Positions 114 to 6,347 of a stretch of 44,335 nt of DNA are shown here, piece after piece. A program made the position numbers and the translations under genes. The stretch is from Candidatus Gastranaerophilales bacterium (GTDB taxonomy: Bacteria > Cyanobacteriota > Vampirovibrionia > Gastranaerophilales > Gastranaerophilaceae), in contig CALVAW010000014.1 of assembly GCA_944325655.1 (NCBI GenBank), positions 1-44,335 of the forward strand. The letters are read 5' to 3'. The notes under the pieces are model-generated. The model did not search any database, was not told where the DNA came from, and saw nothing but the letters and a program-made list of their open reading frames with translations. Each line of letters starts with the position of its first letter. The stretch's first letter is position 1.

Positions 114-139
114 AAAAAAACTGCTTAAAAGCAGTTTTT
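114..139 (-). terminator. Original tRNA-Glu terminator, displaced by the insertion
   Basis: Perfect stem AAACTGCT/AGCAGTTT at 118-137 with a four-base loop. It is flanked by an A-run on the left, which reads as a T-run on the minus strand, and by a short T-run on the right. It lies just outside the left copy of the 12-bp repeat. With the 141-6280 element excised it would sit directly behind the CCA end of tRNA-Glu. I infer it is the tRNA's native terminator. Confidence 0.6.
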
Positions 140-140
140 A

Positions 141-152
141 AAATGGTACCCC
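141..152. repeat. Left attachment-site repeat of the tRNA-Glu element
   Basis: AAATGGTACCCC here is identical to 6269-6280, where it forms the 3' acceptor end, CCA and next three bases of tRNA-Glu (minus strand). The identity ends on both sides, except for two further A matches after one mismatch. This is the duplication expected when an element integrates at a tRNA 3' end. Where the recombinase cuts within the 12 bp cannot be decided from one sequence. Confidence 0.7.
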
Positions 153-205
153 AAATAGAAAATAATTGGAACCGAATAGTCTCCGACATCCGCAAGTTTT
201 ATGAG

Positions 206-388
206 TTAAGGAATATTGCGTAAGGTTTTACAATAGTCAGGACTAGCAGTTAATCCGCACTGTAAACAGACATAATCTCCCGTGGTGGTTGCGAGATAAC
301 ATTCTTTGCCCAATGATGGATGATTGCAAGGTTTGTCTCCCCATTCTTTTTGTAATCTTTTTGCGTCTTCAGTTTGAATTTTTATCAT
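206..388 (-). CDS. Small zinc-ribbon protein
   Basis: 60 residues. A CNHP motif near residue 21 and a CLQCG knuckle near residue 41, with one more Cys between them, look like a single zinc-binding ribbon. Short cytosolic proteins of this form (CxHP followed by GDYVCxxCG) are widespread, but I know of no function. A good ribosome site, GAAAGGAG, lies just upstream of the ATG. It is the leftmost gene of the island and is transcribed toward its left end. Its last 18 bp overlap the sequence that would encode the tail of the recombinase in the circular form. Confidence 0.65.
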   Translation of the reverse strand: MIKIQTEDAKRLQKEWGDKPCNHPSLGKECYLATTTGDYVCLQCGLTASPDYCKTLRNIP

Positions 389-506
389 TTTTTATCTCCT
401 TTCAATATATTATACTAGATTTTTTACAAGAGTATTCAATTTGAAATAAGATTGTACAAAATTTTGTTTCTATACTTATTGTATAATTTATTTAAGAGGA
501 ATTGAT

Positions 507-1205
507 ATGGTGCAATGTATCTATTATAAAGACAAAGTTGGTTTGACATTTAACAAACGAGAACATATCTTCCCCAAAGCTATAGGAGGAACAGAAAGGC
601 TTGATACAGGTGTTGTATCCGACCAAGCAAATGAATTTTTTGCAAATAATCTTGAAGTAAAAACTCTTCGTACTTCTGAAATTGTAATCGGTCGTATTGT
701 TAATGGTTATAATAAAAAACCTAGCAAAGAAAACCATAAAAACAGAACATTGCCTAAATATTTATTTAACAGAGAGATTGATTCAAGGACTTTTGGTAAA
801 ATTGCATTTAATACATTAGCGAAATTAAAAGGTAAGGATTATGTTTTAAGACCTGAATTTGATAAGTTTAGATATTGGATAATGAATGGGAACTGTGGAT
901 GGTATCATTGTCAAATGGGCAAAGAAATTTTAACCAGTACAAAAATAGTACCTGCACAGGCTCATTATTGCGTGTTTGTTGATAATGGAGAATACCTAAT
1001 TGCTGATGTTTGCTTATACAACCATTGGCGAAAAATGTTTGGTATGTGTAAAAAGTTTGATGATTCTTTTGTAATTCCACAAGGTTATATATGTGATTGG
1101 AAAAATAAGAAAGAATTTACTTTAATGGAACTTATGCATGAACTTGCGAAATTAGAAGACTTAAAATATCAAAATCCAAAGGGGTTAGGAAATGCTTTGG
1201 GATAA
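507..1205 (+). CDS. HNH-like protein with altered metal ligands
   Basis: 232 residues. The N-terminus (CIYY, then a REHIFPKAIGG segment around residues 18-29, then a DQANEFF segment) follows the pattern of HNH nucleases of the 'EHI.P..GG...C..CN' kind. The usual second Cys of the first knuckle is Tyr, and the Cys pair before the Asn is replaced by Ser/Gln-Ala. It could be a zinc-free active nuclease or a non-catalytic relative. The remaining 180 residues match no family I recognise. The start is supported by AAGAGGAATTG before the ATG, and a TATAAT lies at 482-487. It is the only plus-strand gene in the left half of the island. Nuclease activity is inference. Confidence 0.6.
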   Translation: MVQCIYYKDKVGLTFNKREHIFPKAIGGTERLDTGVVSDQANEFFANNLEVKTLRTSEIVIGRIVNGYNKKPSKENHKNRTLPKYLFNREIDSRTFGKIAFNTLAKLKGKDYVLRPEFDKFRYWIMNGNCGWYHCQMGKEILTSTKIVPAQAHYCVFVDNGEYLIADVCLYNHWRKMFGMCKKFDDSFVIPQGYICDWKNKKEFTLMELMHELAKLEDLKYQNPKGLGNALG

Positions 1206-1272
1206 ACTATCAGCATCCGTAGAAAATGATTATATAGATTTTAAGTTACAACACTCTAGGATGATAACATAA
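1192..1272 (+). CDS. Possible 26-residue overlapping ORF
   Basis: An ATG at 1192, preceded by AAAGGGGTTAGGAA, opens a 26-codon frame (starting MLWDKLSASVEN) that overlaps the last codons of the HNH-like gene and stops at 1272. The ribosome-site-like sequence and the overlap suggest a coupled small gene or the stump of a longer one. No similarity is recognised. It may be chance. Confidence 0.25.
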   Translation: MLWDKLSASVENDYIDFKLQHSRMIT

Positions 1273-1289
1273 AACTACAAGAAATTTAT

Positions 1290-2828
1290 TCAATTTATAA
1301 AATAATATTTCTGCGAAATCACTTTGCTTTTGTATTCTGATATTGGGACTTCTTTAAATTTGTATATCTTACGACTGGCACCTAAGGTATTGGTATAAGT
1401 ATAATAACCTTCAAACACAACTGCCATTGCCGATTGAATAGAAGAGCCGTCCGCAAATTCCTTATTTGTACCTATATAGATTGTCATATTAGTACCAAAA
1501 GTATCGCTATAATAGTTTGCTAGTACACCGCCTTTAACAGATTGAATAACTCTTACTCCTTCAGGGATAGAATACATTCCATTTACTTTAGGTTTCTGAA
1601 CTCCCCATAAAATGTCTCTGAAATCAATTCTATCAACAAAGTATGGTGTGCTTGATTTTACTGTTGTTAATTTTTGCTTTTTTTCATAGGCTATGCTGTA
1701 GTTATAAATTTCTTTTGCATGTTTGTCCCAAATTGAAATACAACTCTCATAAAAAGAAATTTTATCGAGGTAGTAATCTTTATTGTCTATTTCAGAATTT
1801 TTAATATAATTTAAAACTTCTTGTTCGGATGCTGTACTATTTACTTTCCCATAGTAAACAAGTATATTTTTTACAGTTTCTATGTGCCACCATTTTAATT
1901 CTTTATATTGTTTGATGAAGGTATTTAAACCATCATATAAATTTTTGTTGAAAGCTATATCATTCGGATTTGATTTATATTGTAAATAAGGTTCTTCTAT
2001 TTTTTTGATGTCTTCTTCACTAATTTCTTTGTTGGTTTTCTTACTTGTTCTCACGTAATTTGGACTTAAAGTTTGAAAATACTCAAACAACAGATTTTCT
2101 ATAGAATTATACTTTGTAAAACCAAGAATTGCTTTGCTTAATATGCCGTCCTTTTCAACTCTTTTAATATCACTTTGAAAATAATCTTTTCCTTGCAGTG
2201 TATATATTTTGCTATTATTACCTTCCAAATCTGTAATTTCTAGGGTTAAACTTTTACTATTATTAATTATTTTTAAACATTCTTTTTCTGATAATTCTAT
2301 AGTTGAAATACCATTTATTTTTTGAATGATAGAATTTTTATGTATTTCGAAAAGTTCAGCGGGGGAACCATGCTCTATATTAGTTATTAGTATTGGCATA
2401 GATAAATTTAAGGGATATTTATAAATGCTTATTCCTATTCCTTTTCTCTTTGGGACATATTTGACTATATTTGTAAAACCTTCTATATTACTAAGATTTA
2501 CAGATGTTTCATTTAATGCGGTGCTTATTTCTTGCGGAGATATTTTGAGAGTAATTCTATCACTATTATTTAATAATGATAAACACTGCTTTTCTGTTAA
2601 ATCACTTGTGTTTTTACCATTAATACTTATAATATACCAATTTTCAAGAATACCAGCTTTAGCCGCAGGCGAACCTGTTTGAATACTCCTTATTTGCAAA
2701 GGTTTTGATACAAAAAAATCTTCAAAACTACCCTTTCTAATAGCTTCAATTCCAATACCAAAGCTCTTTGCTTCAGCTGTTATTTGAAAAAGCAGTAACG
2801 ACAGAATTATTAAAAAGACTTTTTTCAT
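1290..2828 (-). CDS. Secreted protein with two PDZ domains
   Basis: 512 residues with a clear signal peptide (MKKVFLIILSLLLFQ, cleavage likely after AEA near residue 20). Two PDZ-like domains follow: about residues 22-105 (GSPAAKAGI, ending near the LTLKI strand) and about 125-205 (GSPAELFEI, ISTIELSEKECL). Each carries the peptide-binding loop and a C-terminal repeat of 'LSEKECLxIINNS'. No protease catalytic domain follows. The rest is a helical middle region and a C-terminal part with FRDILWGVQKP near residue 400 that I cannot assign. It probably acts in the periplasm or at the cell surface as an adaptor. The ribosome site is GAGGG before the ATG. It is an unusual cargo for an island this small. 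Confidence 0.75.
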   Translation of the reverse strand: MKKVFLIILSLLLFQITAEAKSFGIGIEAIRKGSFEDFFVSKPLQIRSIQTGSPAAKAGILENWYIISINGKNTSDLTEKQCLSLLNNSDRITLKISPQEISTALNETSVNLSNIEGFTNIVKYVPKRKGIGISIYKYPLNLSMPILITNIEHGSPAELFEIHKNSIIQKINGISTIELSEKECLKIINNSKSLTLEITDLEGNNSKIYTLQGKDYFQSDIKRVEKDGILSKAILGFTKYNSIENLLFEYFQTLSPNYVRTSKKTNKEISEEDIKKIEEPYLQYKSNPNDIAFNKNLYDGLNTFIKQYKELKWWHIETVKNILVYYGKVNSTASEQEVLNYIKNSEIDNKDYYLDKISFYESCISIWDKHAKEIYNYSIAYEKKQKLTTVKSSTPYFVDRIDFRDILWGVQKPKVNGMYSIPEGVRVIQSVKGGVLANYYSDTFGTNMTIYIGTNKEFADGSSIQSAMAVVFEGYYTYTNTLGASRKIYKFKEVPISEYKSKVISQKYYFIN

Positions 2829-3015
2829 GTTTATACCCTCTTATTATATCGTCATATTACAAAGTCAAACTGTATAGTCAAGCAAAAACTATAATTTAAA
2901 ATGATTATATCTCAAGTGAAACAATTTAATCAACTTAAAACTACATTTTGAATTTATGTAAATTAGCGTTTTAATTTAATACCATTATAGTAATGCTTAA
3001 ATTGAGGTATTAATA

Positions 3016-3330
3016 GTGGATAACAGAAAACTTTTAGGTCTGAGAATAAAAGAATTACGCAAAAGGGCTTCGCTAAGTCAGGAAGTTCTTGCAGAAAAAG
3101 CAGGTATTGAGCCAACATCACTCAGTAATATTGAAAATGGCAGAAATTTCCCATCATTTATTACATTAGAAAATATAATGCGGGTATTAGGAGTTGGATA
3201 TTTTGATGTGTTTCAATTTGCACAATATGCACCCGCTGAGGATTTAATCCAAGAAATTACAACAATCTTAAAGGATAATCCTGAACGAGTAAAGGATGCT
3301 TATAGAATTGTTAAAGCTCTTGTTGATTAA
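3016..3330 (+). CDS. XRE-family transcriptional regulator
   Basis: 104 residues starting at GTG, preceded by TTGAGG. Residues 5-62 form a Cro/C1-type helix-turn-helix (LGLRIKELRKRASLSQEVLA, then TSLSNIENGRNFPS). The C-terminal 40 residues resemble a short dimerisation segment. It diverges from the PDZ gene across a 187-bp intergenic region and precedes the MerR-like gene in the same direction. A TATAGT at 2986-2991 may be its -10 box, without a convincing -35. It probably controls the island genes; the target is unknown. Confidence 0.8.
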   Translation: MDNRKLLGLRIKELRKRASLSQEVLAEKAGIEPTSLSNIENGRNFPSFITLENIMRVLGVGYFDVFQFAQYAPAEDLIQEITTILKDNPERVKDAYRIVKALVD

Positions 3331-3423
3331 TTTAACGGTGGCTTACGGTGGAGTTTGTAAAATTTTATTAAATCTCTAAAGAATTATACTTGCATGTATG
3401 ATTTAACTATGTCAATATAAAAC

Positions 3424-3439
3424 TATACATTGGTGTATA
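3424..3439. promoter_or_regulatory. Inverted repeat before the MerR-like gene
   Basis: TATACATTGGTGTATA is a perfect 6+4+6 inverted repeat ending 21 bp before the ATG of the MerR-like gene. A TATAAT at 3436-3441 overlaps its right arm, so a protein bound here would cover the -10 box. A partial copy (ATACTTGCATGTAT) lies at 3387-3400. It is a plausible autoregulatory operator, by inference only. Confidence 0.45.
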
Positions 3440-3460
3440 ATTTTCAAAGAGGTTATTAAT

Positions 3461-4333
3461 ATGACAAGTTCTAAAAAGCTAAGTTCCATAAGTCAAAAAA
3501 CATTTTTACAAATTAATTCCCTTTTGGAATTTGATAACATAGTTGGAACTATAGATTATGAAAAAGTCTTATCCGAAGTTGAAAATGTTAATAAACCTCG
3601 TTACTATCCTCAACAAATTATTAAATTAATACCCGAAATAACATCACGAAAATTAAACGATTGGGATGCTAAGGGATTACTGGTTAAACATCGAGAGAGT
3701 AACAACGGCTGGCGGTTGTTTTCACTTGCTGATGTCGTTCGGTTACGGATTATTCAGGATTTAAAAACTTATGGAATGTCTAATATTCAAATACAAAAAG
3801 CACTGACTGGTATTTTTGAATTAAACGACACGAAACGACAGTATTTATTTGAAACATTTTTAAGTATATGTGCGACAGCAAGAAAAGTCGTTATTATTGT
3901 GGAATTTGATGGGAGTGCATCTTTGTATCTTGAGGACTCTGCTTACGTTAATTTGAAAATGGATAAAAACTGTTGTAAACCTGTTTTAATTCTGCCATTT
4001 TACGACTACTGTATGCCATTTATGCCACATAACGGTTATAAAATGACTGTAACTACCTCTGAGGTTGTAAACGAGCAAGATAGTGTAAGAATTGATGCTG
4101 TGGCTGATAAATTAATTGATGATAGAAATAAAAGTATTAACATAGAAAGAAAAAATAATAGAGGGAAAGAGTATTTAATAATGAAAACAACATCAACGGA
4201 GGTAAATTTAGATTTATCACCCAAAGAGTTGATGGATAGGGTTAAAGGTAGACCTTATACAAAAACAATACCTTTCGTTGATGAAAATGGACTAATGTCT
4301 ATTACAACAGAGGTAACTGATAAAATTAAATAA
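3461..4333 (+). CDS. MerR-like DNA-binding protein
   Basis: 290 residues. Residues 52-110 fit a MerR-type winged helix (SRKLNDWDAKGLLV, RLFSLADVVRLRIIQDLKTYGMS), here preceded by about 50 extra residues. The rest, about residues 115-290, contains no familiar effector domain. It has a Cys-Cys pair (NCCKPV) and ends with a conserved-looking SPKELMDRVKGRPYTK segment. An AAAGAGG ribosome site precedes the ATG. The inverted repeat just upstream suggests autoregulation. Its place between the XRE gene and the recombinase suggests control of element maintenance or excision, which is inferred. Confidence 0.65.
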   Translation: MTSSKKLSSISQKTFLQINSLLEFDNIVGTIDYEKVLSEVENVNKPRYYPQQIIKLIPEITSRKLNDWDAKGLLVKHRESNNGWRLFSLADVVRLRIIQDLKTYGMSNIQIQKALTGIFELNDTKRQYLFETFLSICATARKVVIIVEFDGSASLYLEDSAYVNLKMDKNCCKPVLILPFYDYCMPFMPHNGYKMTVTTSEVVNEQDSVRIDAVADKLIDDRNKSINIERKNNRGKEYLIMKTTSTEVNLDLSPKELMDRVKGRPYTKTIPFVDENGLMSITTEVTDKIK

Positions 4334-4438
4334 TTTCAGTGGCTAAAAAATAGAGCTGGATTATTAGTATAACAAAATATTTTAAGGCGGCAACAAGAGA
4401 CGTTGAACCTTAATACAAAGGCAAAAGGATGGATAACC

Positions 4439-4624
4439 ATGCTTAGTATTAAGGCGTGTAGACGTAGTCTTGGAAAGTATGCCAAAAATTTGGATGATAG
4501 CGAAGTTGAGGCTATCAGGGATTTAATGTACCAATTAGCATTTGTAGTGGTAGAAGATTACCTGAATAAATGCTCTAAAGTTGTGCCGATTACGGCAGAA
4601 AGGAACAAAAATGAAAAACGATGA
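4439..4624 (+). CDS. Small ORF upstream of recombinase
   Basis: 61 residues from the ATG at 4439, with AAAAGG ten bases upstream. A TTG 36 bp earlier is open in frame but has no ribosome site. The protein is helical (LSIKACRRSLGKYAKNLDDS, then EAIRDLMYQLAFVVVEDYL). Short proteins of this general form often lie just before serine recombinases in mobile elements, and a role as excision factor is possible but unproven. It overlaps the next gene by 14 bp. Confidence 0.6.
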   Translation: MLSIKACRRSLGKYAKNLDDSEVEAIRDLMYQLAFVVVEDYLNKCSKVVPITAERNKNEKR

Positions 4625-4790
4625 TTTTATGAAGTTATTACAAGACCCTGAGTTTAAAAACTCTCCCATAGGAGAACTTCAAAATAGTTTACAGGAGGCT
4701 TTTAAAAGGTACGAATGGAGAATGAGAAGTGAACGCATAAAAGCAGGAATTAGAGAAGCAAAATTAAGAAAAGCGGGTAAGGCGGAGTAA
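4611..4790 (+). CDS. Small basic protein upstream of recombinase
   Basis: 59 residues from the ATG at 4611 with AGAAAGGAAC just upstream. The frame is open further upstream, but that start has no ribosome site. The C-terminal half is a highly basic helix (RYEWRMRSERIKAGIREAKL). It overlaps the preceding ORF by 14 bp and ends 28 bp before the recombinase, so the three are probably cotranscribed. It is a candidate recombination directionality factor or DNA-binding accessory; no family is recognised. Confidence 0.6.
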   Translation: MKNDDFMKLLQDPEFKNSPIGELQNSLQEAFKRYEWRMRSERIKAGIREAKLRKAGKAE

Positions 4791-4797
4791 TTCCGCC
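4781..4797 (+). promoter_or_regulatory. Hairpin before the recombinase start
   Basis: GGCGGA and TCCGCC form a perfect six-base, GC-rich stem with a five-base loop. It spans the stop codon of the preceding small ORF and lies 21 bp before the recombinase ATG. There is no T-run, so it is not an intrinsic terminator. It may be an mRNA processing or translation-coupling structure. Confidence 0.35.
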
Positions 4798-4818
4798 TCC
4801 TAATGAAAGGAGAAATTT

Positions 4819-6312
4819 ATGAGTAATGCAATTATTTATACAAGAGTTTCAACGAAAAATCAGGCAGAAGAAGGTTACAGTTTAGCTGGTCAGGAAAAAG
4901 ACTGTAAAGTTTTTGCGGAAGTAAATGGATATAAGGTGTCAAAAGTGTTTGTGGAAAAAGGTGAAAGTGCTAAAACACAGGATAGAACCGAATTGCAAAA
5001 TCTTATGAAATTTTGTATCGCAAACAAAAAGAATATTGATGCAATTATAATTTGGAAAATTGATAGATTAACCAGAGATATCAAGGATTTTTACAAACTA
5101 CAGGAATTTTTTGCAAAGTTGAATATTAAAGTATTATTTGCAAGAGAGAATAATGGGGATTCAGCAACTGATAAATTAACCCGAAATTTGATGGGAGTTT
5201 TAGCTCAATACGAAAATGACCAAAAATCAGAAAGAGTAACCAACGGCATGAAAACCGCTTTTTTACAAGGTCATTGGATGTGGAAAGCACCTATCGGGTA
5301 CATTATGAAAAATGGTAACATTGAACCAGACCCCAAAACTGCACATCATATCAAAAAGATTTTTAAACTTTTTGCAACTGGATTGTATCAGCAGGTGCAA
5401 ATAATTAAAATAATGGCTGATGATGGATTAAAGATTAATACTAATATGCTATGTCGTATGCTGAAAAATCCGCTTTATAACGGTTATATGTACAAAAAGG
5501 AATGGTCTGAGGAACCCATTAGAGGAATTTTCGAACCACTTATATCAGAAGACGAATTTAAAAAAGTTCAAGATATATTGATGGGCAGAAGACCGCTTAT
5601 TACTGCATATAAGCGGAATAATCCCGAGTTTCCACTACGTCAATTCATTACCTGTCCTCATTGCAACCAACCATTAACAGGTAGTAAATCTAAAGGTAGA
5701 AAAGAAAAATATCCATATTATCATTGTCATAATAAAGATTGTTCTATCCATTTTAGGATAAGAAAAGAAAGATTAGAAGAGATGTTTGTTGAGTATTTGA
5801 ATTACATTAAACCTGAACAGAATTTACTTAATTTATTTGAGGCTACCGTAAAAGATATTTATAACGAAAAATTATCAGTAAGATTAAACAGTCAAAAACG
5901 AGTGCAAGACAAACTAATTGAACTTAAAAATAAAAAGAGTAAGTTAATTGATTTTAGAATAGATGGAACAATAAGCGAAGAAGATTATAAGTTCAAAACA
6001 GAGCAATTAGCAGAGGAAATACAAGAGCAGGAGTTCCGCTTACGTGAATTTGAAGTGCATGACGAAGATTTATCAAAGTGTCTTAAATATGCCTGTAGAG
6101 CAATTAGCAATATTGATACATTATGGGAAAATGGTGATTTAGACTTGAAACAAAGATTGCAGAGATTAATTTTCCCTAAAGGTTTGATGTATTTTTCAGA
6201 TGATTTTCGAACCGCTGAAATCTCAAGCCTATTCATTAAAAAAGACACCTTAAAGGTGTCTTATAATCAAATGGTACCCCCAAGCGAATTCGAATCGCTG
6301 TCTACACCGTGA
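4819..6312 (+). CDS. Large serine recombinase (integrase)
   Basis: 497 residues. The N-terminal resolvase domain (about 1-150) begins IIYTRVSTKNQ with catalytic Ser11 and contains the IWKIDRLTRD helix. A recombinase domain follows (about 155-260), then a zinc ribbon (CPHCN near residue 280 with a CHNKDC partner near 308), and a long coiled coil (about 345-415) of the kind that controls directionality. The ribosome site is GAAAGGAG. It probably integrates and excises the 141-6280 element. The last 13 codons and the stop lie antisense in tRNA-Glu, so the C-terminus is supplied by the chromosomal target. In the excised circle the frame would run into the left end and give a different 26-residue tail. 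Confidence 0.93.
   Translation: MSNAIIYTRVSTKNQAEEGYSLAGQEKDCKVFAEVNGYKVSKVFVEKGESAKTQDRTELQNLMKFCIANKKNIDAIIIWKIDRLTRDIKDFYKLQEFFAKLNIKVLFARENNGDSATDKLTRNLMGVLAQYENDQKSERVTNGMKTAFLQGHWMWKAPIGYIMKNGNIEPDPKTAHHIKKIFKLFATGLYQQVQIIKIMADDGLKINTNMLCRMLKNPLYNGYMYKKEWSEEPIRGIFEPLISEDEFKKVQDILMGRRPLITAYKRNNPEFPLRQFITCPHCNQPLTGSKSKGRKEKYPYYHCHNKDCSIHFRIRKERLEEMFVEYLNYIKPEQNLLNLFEATVKDIYNEKLSVRLNSQKRVQDKLIELKNKKSKLIDFRIDGTISEEDYKFKTEQLAEEIQEQEFRLREFEVHDEDLSKCLKYACRAISNIDTLWENGDLDLKQRLQRLIFPKGLMYFSDDFRTAEISSLFIKKDTLKVSYNQMVPPSEFESLSTP
6238..6262 (-). terminator. Element-supplied terminator for tRNA-Glu
   Basis: AAGACACC/GGTGTCTT stem, with an A-run on its left that reads as a T-run on the minus strand, nine bases beyond the CCA end of tRNA-Glu. 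It lies within the recombinase coding sequence near residues 474-482. It would replace the terminator now at 114-139, keeping the tRNA transcript defined after integration. Confidence 0.6.
6269..6280. repeat. Right attachment-site repeat within tRNA-Glu
   Basis: AAATGGTACCCC, identical to 141-152. On the minus strand it reads as part of the acceptor stem, the discriminator base, CCA and TTT. Because the element restores these bases, the tRNA stays intact after integration. Confidence 0.7.
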
Positions 6313-6347
6313 AAGGGTGTTGTCCTAGGCCTCTAGACGATGGGGGC
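6272..6347 (-). tRNA. tRNA-Glu (anticodon UUC)
   Basis: A 76-nt cloverleaf. The acceptor GCCCCCA pairs with TGGGGGT (one G-U pair), then comes discriminator A and an encoded CCA. The anticodon stem is ACACC/GGTGT around the loop CTTTCAC, giving UUC. The T-loop is TTCGAAT. The 'GCCCCCATCGTCTAGAGG' start is typical of cyanobacterial-type tRNA-Glu. It is the integration target of the element on its left, and the recombinase stop codon (TGA, 6310-6312) falls on the anticodon region of the opposite strand. Confidence 0.95.

Follow-up and report, generated by a model that had tools for sequence, protein, structure and literature searches.

Archaeal SSV-type integrases are tyrosine enzymes whose gene contains attP and is split by integration. 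The integrase of Myxococcus phage Mx8 we take to be a tyrosine integrase as well. The attP of Mx8 lies inside int, which acquires a new 3′ end when the phage integrates; the altered integrase is reported to be still active with a changed specificity, and a similar principle is described for Mx9 (PMC6070905). In mycobacteriophage BPs, integration shortens the C-terminus of a protein and removes from it an ssrA-like tag that is present on the viral form (PMC4557955). For the large serine integrase LI, the distance of the zinc-domain motif from the centre was found to be 5 bp greater in attP than in attB (PMC3783163). Our search of the open-licence literature found no report of an attP inside the gene, with a 3′ end altered by integration, for a serine recombinase.

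The window analysed here is a stretch of 44,335 nucleotides from a Candidatus Gastranaerophilales bacterium (contig G000:C14 in the genome labels of our comparison set), and it carries an integrated element inserted at a tRNA-Glu gene. The features that matter for this arrangement are as follows.

116–139, reverse strand: hairpin resembling a terminator in the chromosomal flank, which the element has moved away from the tRNA; similar hairpins occur at empty sites
141–152, forward strand: left copy of the 12-bp att repeat AAATGGTACCCC
143–223, forward strand: predicted circle-state C-terminus MVPQIENNWNRIVSDIRKFYELRNIA and stop; the first approx. 10 codons are also attP arm, codons 11–26 are under protein-level selection
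153–6268: body of the integrated element, about 6.1 kb, bounded by the 12-bp repeats
166–172, forward strand: putative attP zinc-domain motif TTGGAAC, at +23 counted from the A of ATGG
4819–6270, forward strand: recombinase, the 484 codons common to both states (PF00239, PF07508, PF13408); relatives are 50–97% identical
5818–6051, forward strand: predicted coiled-coil helices, residues 334–411 (AlphaFold model)
6242–6262, reverse strand: terminator hairpin antisense in the recombinase 3′ end, which would replace the tRNA's own terminator on integration
6269–6280, forward strand: right copy of the att repeat AAATGGTACCCC, taking in the encoded CCA end of the tRNA
6271–6312, forward strand: integrated-state C-terminus MVPPSEFESLSTP and stop, antisense to tRNA-Glu, predicted to be unstructured
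6272–6347, reverse strand: tRNA-Glu(TTC), the attachment target, intact after integration; empty sites are found in relatives
6289–6294, forward strand: TTCGAA, the T-loop read antisense; putative attB zinc-domain motif at offset +18, 5 bp nearer than in attP

The open reading frame at 4819–6312 (forward strand) encodes a large serine recombinase of 497 aa with resolvase catalytic, recombinase and zinc-ribbon domains (PF00239, 2.4e-32; PF07508, 3.4e-10; PF13408, 3.2e-11), and ends inside the tRNA-Glu(TTC) gene of the other strand. The repeat AAATGGTACCCC is present in only two copies in the whole genome, at 141–152 and 6269–6280, in direct orientation. In two related loci (L004 and L005) the tRNA differs at the next bases and the shared core is reduced to AAATGGTAC and to ATGGTAC, respectively, which places the crossover within ATGGTAC. 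In element-free genomes of the same genus, the 3′ end of the tRNA is followed directly by a terminator-like hairpin. The hairpin at the 3′ end of the recombinase gene is kept in relatives with its sequence altered on both arms. Recombinase codons near 474–482 double as an opposite-strand terminator hairpin for the tRNA, and the pN/pS well above 1 in the last 12 codons before the core is probably due to this overlap.

As cargo, the element carries genes for a PDZ-domain protein (1290–2828, reverse strand), a Cro/C1-type regulator (3016–3330, forward strand) and a MerR-type protein (3461–4333, forward strand); a domain search recognised no replication or transfer genes in it. The first 400 bp of the window are AT-rich and contain 5 promoter-like sites against 1.7 expected in shuffled sequences. 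A 60-aa open reading frame with cysteines (206–388, reverse strand) ends antisense inside the last 18 bases of the left-end coding tail; in G094 and G165 there is similar sequence 3′ of the tail, which is absent from other elements, so it is not needed for the tail.

An earlier note on this DNA had proposed that the last 13 codons and the stop of the recombinase lie antisense in tRNA-Glu, and that in an excised circle the frame would instead continue into the left end and give a tail of 26 residues. Both statements held: the coordinates 6271–6312 and 6272–6347 agree with the former, and the arithmetic of the latter is right. Codon 485 begins at 6271, one base ahead of the tRNA, and the 13 codons of MVPPSEFESLSTP and a stop follow. 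The right repeat copy is read in the recombinase frame as ATG GTA CCC, codons 485–487, and the left copy, in the same frame, runs on as CAA ATA GAA ... GCG TAA, encoding MVPQIENNWNRIVSDIRKFYELRNIA with the stop at 221–223. Joining the repeat copies in frame yields a recombinase of 510 aa with a 26-residue tail. The attP is hence placed within the recombinase reading frame and the C-terminus is changed by integration, which confirms the observation of a state-dependent recombinase C-terminus. The same note had put the tail right after the coiled coil, and this was wrong: in the AlphaFold model, which is a prediction only, the coiled coil that follows the zinc ribbon consists of helices 334–381 and 387–411, the residues after it form three helices and three strands up to approx. 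474, and residues 479–497 of the integrated form are of low confidence and lack secondary structure. For the Glu lineage we infer the fused frame of body and tail from the two repeat copies; neither an excised circle nor a fused form was present in viral_contigs or among the tail matches in the family, and searches of plasmids and phages returned distant recombinases only.

The geometry of the attachment sites is consistent with this arrangement. A TTNGAA-type motif was found at offset 23 in 14/14 tails of the Glu set, and in a lineage that uses tRNA-Asp (see below) the motif lies 23 from TGG in 14 of 15 tails versus 18 in tRNA-Asp. This 5-bp difference provides independent support for the start of the tail being the attP arm and the T-arm of the tRNA being the attB arm. 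The shift was seen in one arm; a mirrored zinc motif in the opposite att arms was looked for and not found.

At the threshold used, a relative of the recombinase was detected in 20 of the 383 genomes of the family, with full-length matches down to about 45–50% identity, and no further recombinases of the Glu lineage were found outside the family in an order-level sample. The earlier note had named an unconserved circle-form tail as one of the findings that would overturn its proposal, and the comparison of relatives contradicts this. Among relatives whose recombinases are approx. 50–97% identical, the 26-codon frame was open to the identical stop position, more often than expected by chance, in all 15 distinct left ends analysed (for example, MVPLVKNSWNRIVSDLRSFYELRNIA, MVPQIRNNWNTIVTEIYNFYELRNVA, MVPHIEKNSKQIVLELYQLYELRNVA and MVLHLKKDLNQIIVTLQQFYELRNVA at the far ends of relatives), one of which, in G086, lacks the initial ATG. 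The sequence 3′ of the tail stop is mostly unrelated, with some pairs having common flanks (e.g., G000/G094/G165). In the 15 tails, codons 11–26 have a pN/pS of 0.36 in frame, compared with 0.83 and 1.47 in the other frames, and in the set with known bodies the value for these codons is 0.37 versus 0.36 for the adjacent recombinase body. Beyond the att arm, parsimony changes at the three codon positions number 27, 11 and 45, an excess at third positions (p = 7e-5) and a deficit at second positions (p = 3e-5) if changes are taken as independent. In codons 4–10 the corresponding counts are 7, 9 and 9 with no codon signal, which fits the first approx. 30 bp being the attP arm and the remainder being protein. 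These codon patterns show that the 26-residue tail is maintained by selection in the unintegrated enzyme; this selection speaks for a role of the tail while the element is unintegrated, not for an effect of losing it.

Left ends with an in-frame stop do occur (G148 and G171 in the Glu set, G311 in the Asp set), and no cognate recombinase was found in these three genomes, a small number; some intact tails are also located in genomes where none was found (e.g., G195). The recombinase body of G073 is 97% identical to that of the window, while its tail is only 73% identical. Bodies and tails are thus partly mosaic, and a tail is not necessarily bound closely to one particular body. Tails would be expected to change partners when different elements recombine at their shared core, and elements in position for such an exchange do occur as neighbours in the tandem array of G173 described below. 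Two further ideas about the tail were considered. An amphipathic helix was abandoned as hydrophobic moments were no better than those of shuffled sequences, and a separately translated small peptide is disfavoured by the host-variable flank 5′ of the ATG, the lack of an ATG in G086 and, by eye, no obvious ribosome site upstream of the ATG. In G264 (L063, G264:C64), two identical tails 1042 bp apart enclose one gene that by eye resembles DinD/BRO-type proteins, and what appears to be the start of this same gene is situated 3′ of the stop-bearing tail in G171 (L067, G171:C7); the arrangement may represent a satellite of a single gene that shares these att sites.

A sister group with recombinases about 42–45% identical uses tRNA-His. 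Its tails (MGQVIDFNSNQIFNELKNFYKLKNVK, MGQVIDFNSNRLLNEINKFYELKQLLK and MGRVLSFSSNQLLDDLQRFDELRRIC) equal the Glu tails in length within one residue and match in the F-x-x-L region, but differ in the core; by this comparison they are homologous to the Glu tails. In four tRNA-His loci (L042, L043, L044 and L045) the integrated frame crosses the whole tRNA to variable stops, giving proteins of about 513–537 aa. A survey of PF07508 proteins revealed more recombinases whose ends lie antisense in a tRNA gene, the tRNAs being Asn, Asp, Arg, Leu and Ala; a repeat search found no left end for the Asn, Ala or Arg lineage, nor for G181. The recombinase of the tRNA-Asp lineage is 25.7% identical to that of the window over 393 residues, and a 41-codon tail was found for it in many genomes. 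Fifteen aligned Asp tails show 60, 48 and 83 changes by codon position, with a third-position excess of p = 0.002. In G173 (L159 1–7396, G173:C18), two elements are integrated in tandem in one tRNA-Asp and, because the second element sits between the first recombinase and the tRNA, the first recombinase is fused in frame to the tail of the second element in a single open frame. Body and tail are thus observed as one reading frame, in a tandem array rather than in a free circle, and it is in this distant lineage only that the fused frame was seen directly. The tail of this natural fused protein was modelled as two helices with pLDDT below 50 (AlphaFold). The Glu and Asp tails have no obvious similarity beyond a shared ending, and with two tail families, of 26 and 41 codons, there is no single universal tail.

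The shared ending concerns the last two residues. All 15 Glu tails end in [IV]A, with 0, 0 and 8 changes at the three positions of codon 26, and 14 of the 15 aligned Asp tails, one cut by a contig end being counted, end in [IVA]A after variable preceding residues, with 1, 0 and 4 changes in the last codon. Such an ending is found in only 1.2% of 495 distinct long open reading frame ends. The genome's own tmRNA tag, ANNVVKADFAPRAIAA, ends in AIAA, which suggests that -[IVA]A is a putative ssrA-like turnover signal on the unintegrated enzyme. The His-group tails end in NVK, LLK or RIC.

We consider it probable that the element carries attP inside the 3′ end of its own recombinase gene and that a selected 510-aa form is swapped at integration. 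Joined across the repeat in the unintegrated form, the gene would encode a 510-aa enzyme with the conserved 26-residue tail; a crossover within ATGGTAC of the tRNA-Glu gene would split this tail off the recombinase body, which would then acquire 13 residues encoded antisense in the tRNA gene; the 3′ end of the body would supply the terminator hairpin for the tRNA. With attP inside the recombinase gene, integration would in this way replace the 26-residue end by 13 tRNA-antisense residues. Selection may have favoured the full-length enzyme for performing (or limiting) integration, the tail-less form may differ in activity or stability, and excision would restore the original enzyme. Likely routes are a contribution of the tail to the integration complex and/or a -[IV]A end that makes the unintegrated enzyme short-lived.

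Two explanations would leave the tail without a function as protein. If attP DNA alone were conserved and the open frame incidental, the first approx. 30 bp would be accounted for, since they do behave as a DNA site; codons 11–26, however, lie beyond a 25-bp half-site and carry the third-position excess and second-position deficit given above, and this codon pattern leads us to reject the explanation as barely credible. The earlier note had also allowed for a neutral by-product of landing in the 3′ end of a tRNA gene. The tRNA sets the sequence of the 13-residue integrated tail, for which no selection has to be assumed, but the circle form is under purifying selection as protein, so that a purely neutral by-product is very unlikely for it. 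A third account accepts selection without any switch: the tail would be the normal C-terminus for integration or stability, its loss tolerated and the integrated copy idle until excision. Selection on the tail requires only a role in the circle, and the integrated tail is unstructured in the AlphaFold model, so we regard this account as possible, although not the probable one. The recurrence of attP within the gene in several lineages and tRNA targets counts against it, unless that recurrence is explained by common descent or by the advantage of keeping int and attP together as a compact unit.

Another possibility is that the ssrA-like end renders the unintegrated recombinase short-lived and that integration swaps the signal and stabilises the enzyme. 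It draws on the terminal residues of the Glu and Asp tails, their rarity among other frame ends, the tmRNA tag and the precedent of phage BPs, in which integration within the phage's repressor gene removes such a tag (PMC4557955). The endings of the His group do not conform, conservation reaches well inside the tail, beyond the needs of a degron, and with only two independent origins the terminal match could be coincidence; as a full account it seems to us rather doubtful. Still less likely, in our view, is that the tail touches the coiled coil, the zinc domain or a directionality factor and biases the full-length enzyme towards attP x attB, the tail-less one towards attL x attR. Coiled-coil contacts do set direction in serine integrases (PMC3783163), the tail is conserved internally (FYELRN), and its swap takes place just as attP/attB give way to attL/attR as substrates; against this, no reliable tail structure was obtained (pLDDT below 50), the tail lies some 70 residues past the coiled coil, and no directionality factor was recognised. 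A role of the tail in the integration complex or in direction is as conceivable as a turnover signal, and loss of the tail would be a plausible integrate/excise switch. Returning to the swap of C-termini at integration, we tentatively extend it to a possible self-editing C-terminus in the large serine recombinases of this group, where a selected tail, perhaps with a proteolysis signal, would mark the unintegrated enzyme and the reaction itself would remove and restore it. This extension would cover three tRNA targets and two distantly related recombinase lineages.

What controls the direction of serine integrases is a central issue, with relevance to genome engineering. These elements offer, in several lineages, matched natural pairs of one enzyme that has or lacks a conserved tail depending on whether the element is integrated, so that the role of the C-terminus is directly testable, and they offer compact enzyme-plus-attP units in which the protein changes after integration. 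They also carry a warning that the native C-terminus can be missing from recombinase sequences whose annotation comes from integrated elements. If the self-editing reading is true, the enzyme's own protein records how the reaction has turned out.

Among described systems, phages Mx8 and Mx9 resemble the window element in having attP in the integrase gene and a 3′ end altered by integration. The window enzyme differs in being a large serine recombinase, with serine rather than tyrosine recombinase domains, and the evidence presented here is comparative, drawn from many elements and three tRNA targets. In phage BPs the gene divided is that of the repressor, whereas here it is that of the recombinase; the likeness lies in a C-terminus shortened by site-specific integration. 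A tag on the unintegrated form is only suggested here, by -[IVA]A in two lineages, and is absent in the His group. SSV-type elements likewise have attP inside the integrase gene, but their gene is left in pieces, while the frame of the window element is open in both states. With the A118/LI-type large serine integrases the window enzyme shares the arrangement of domains (catalytic, recombinase, zinc ribbon, coiled coil, in this order) and a zinc motif displaced by 5 bp in attP relative to attB (PMC3783163), and it differs from them in having its att site inside the enzyme's own gene and in a tRNA gene.
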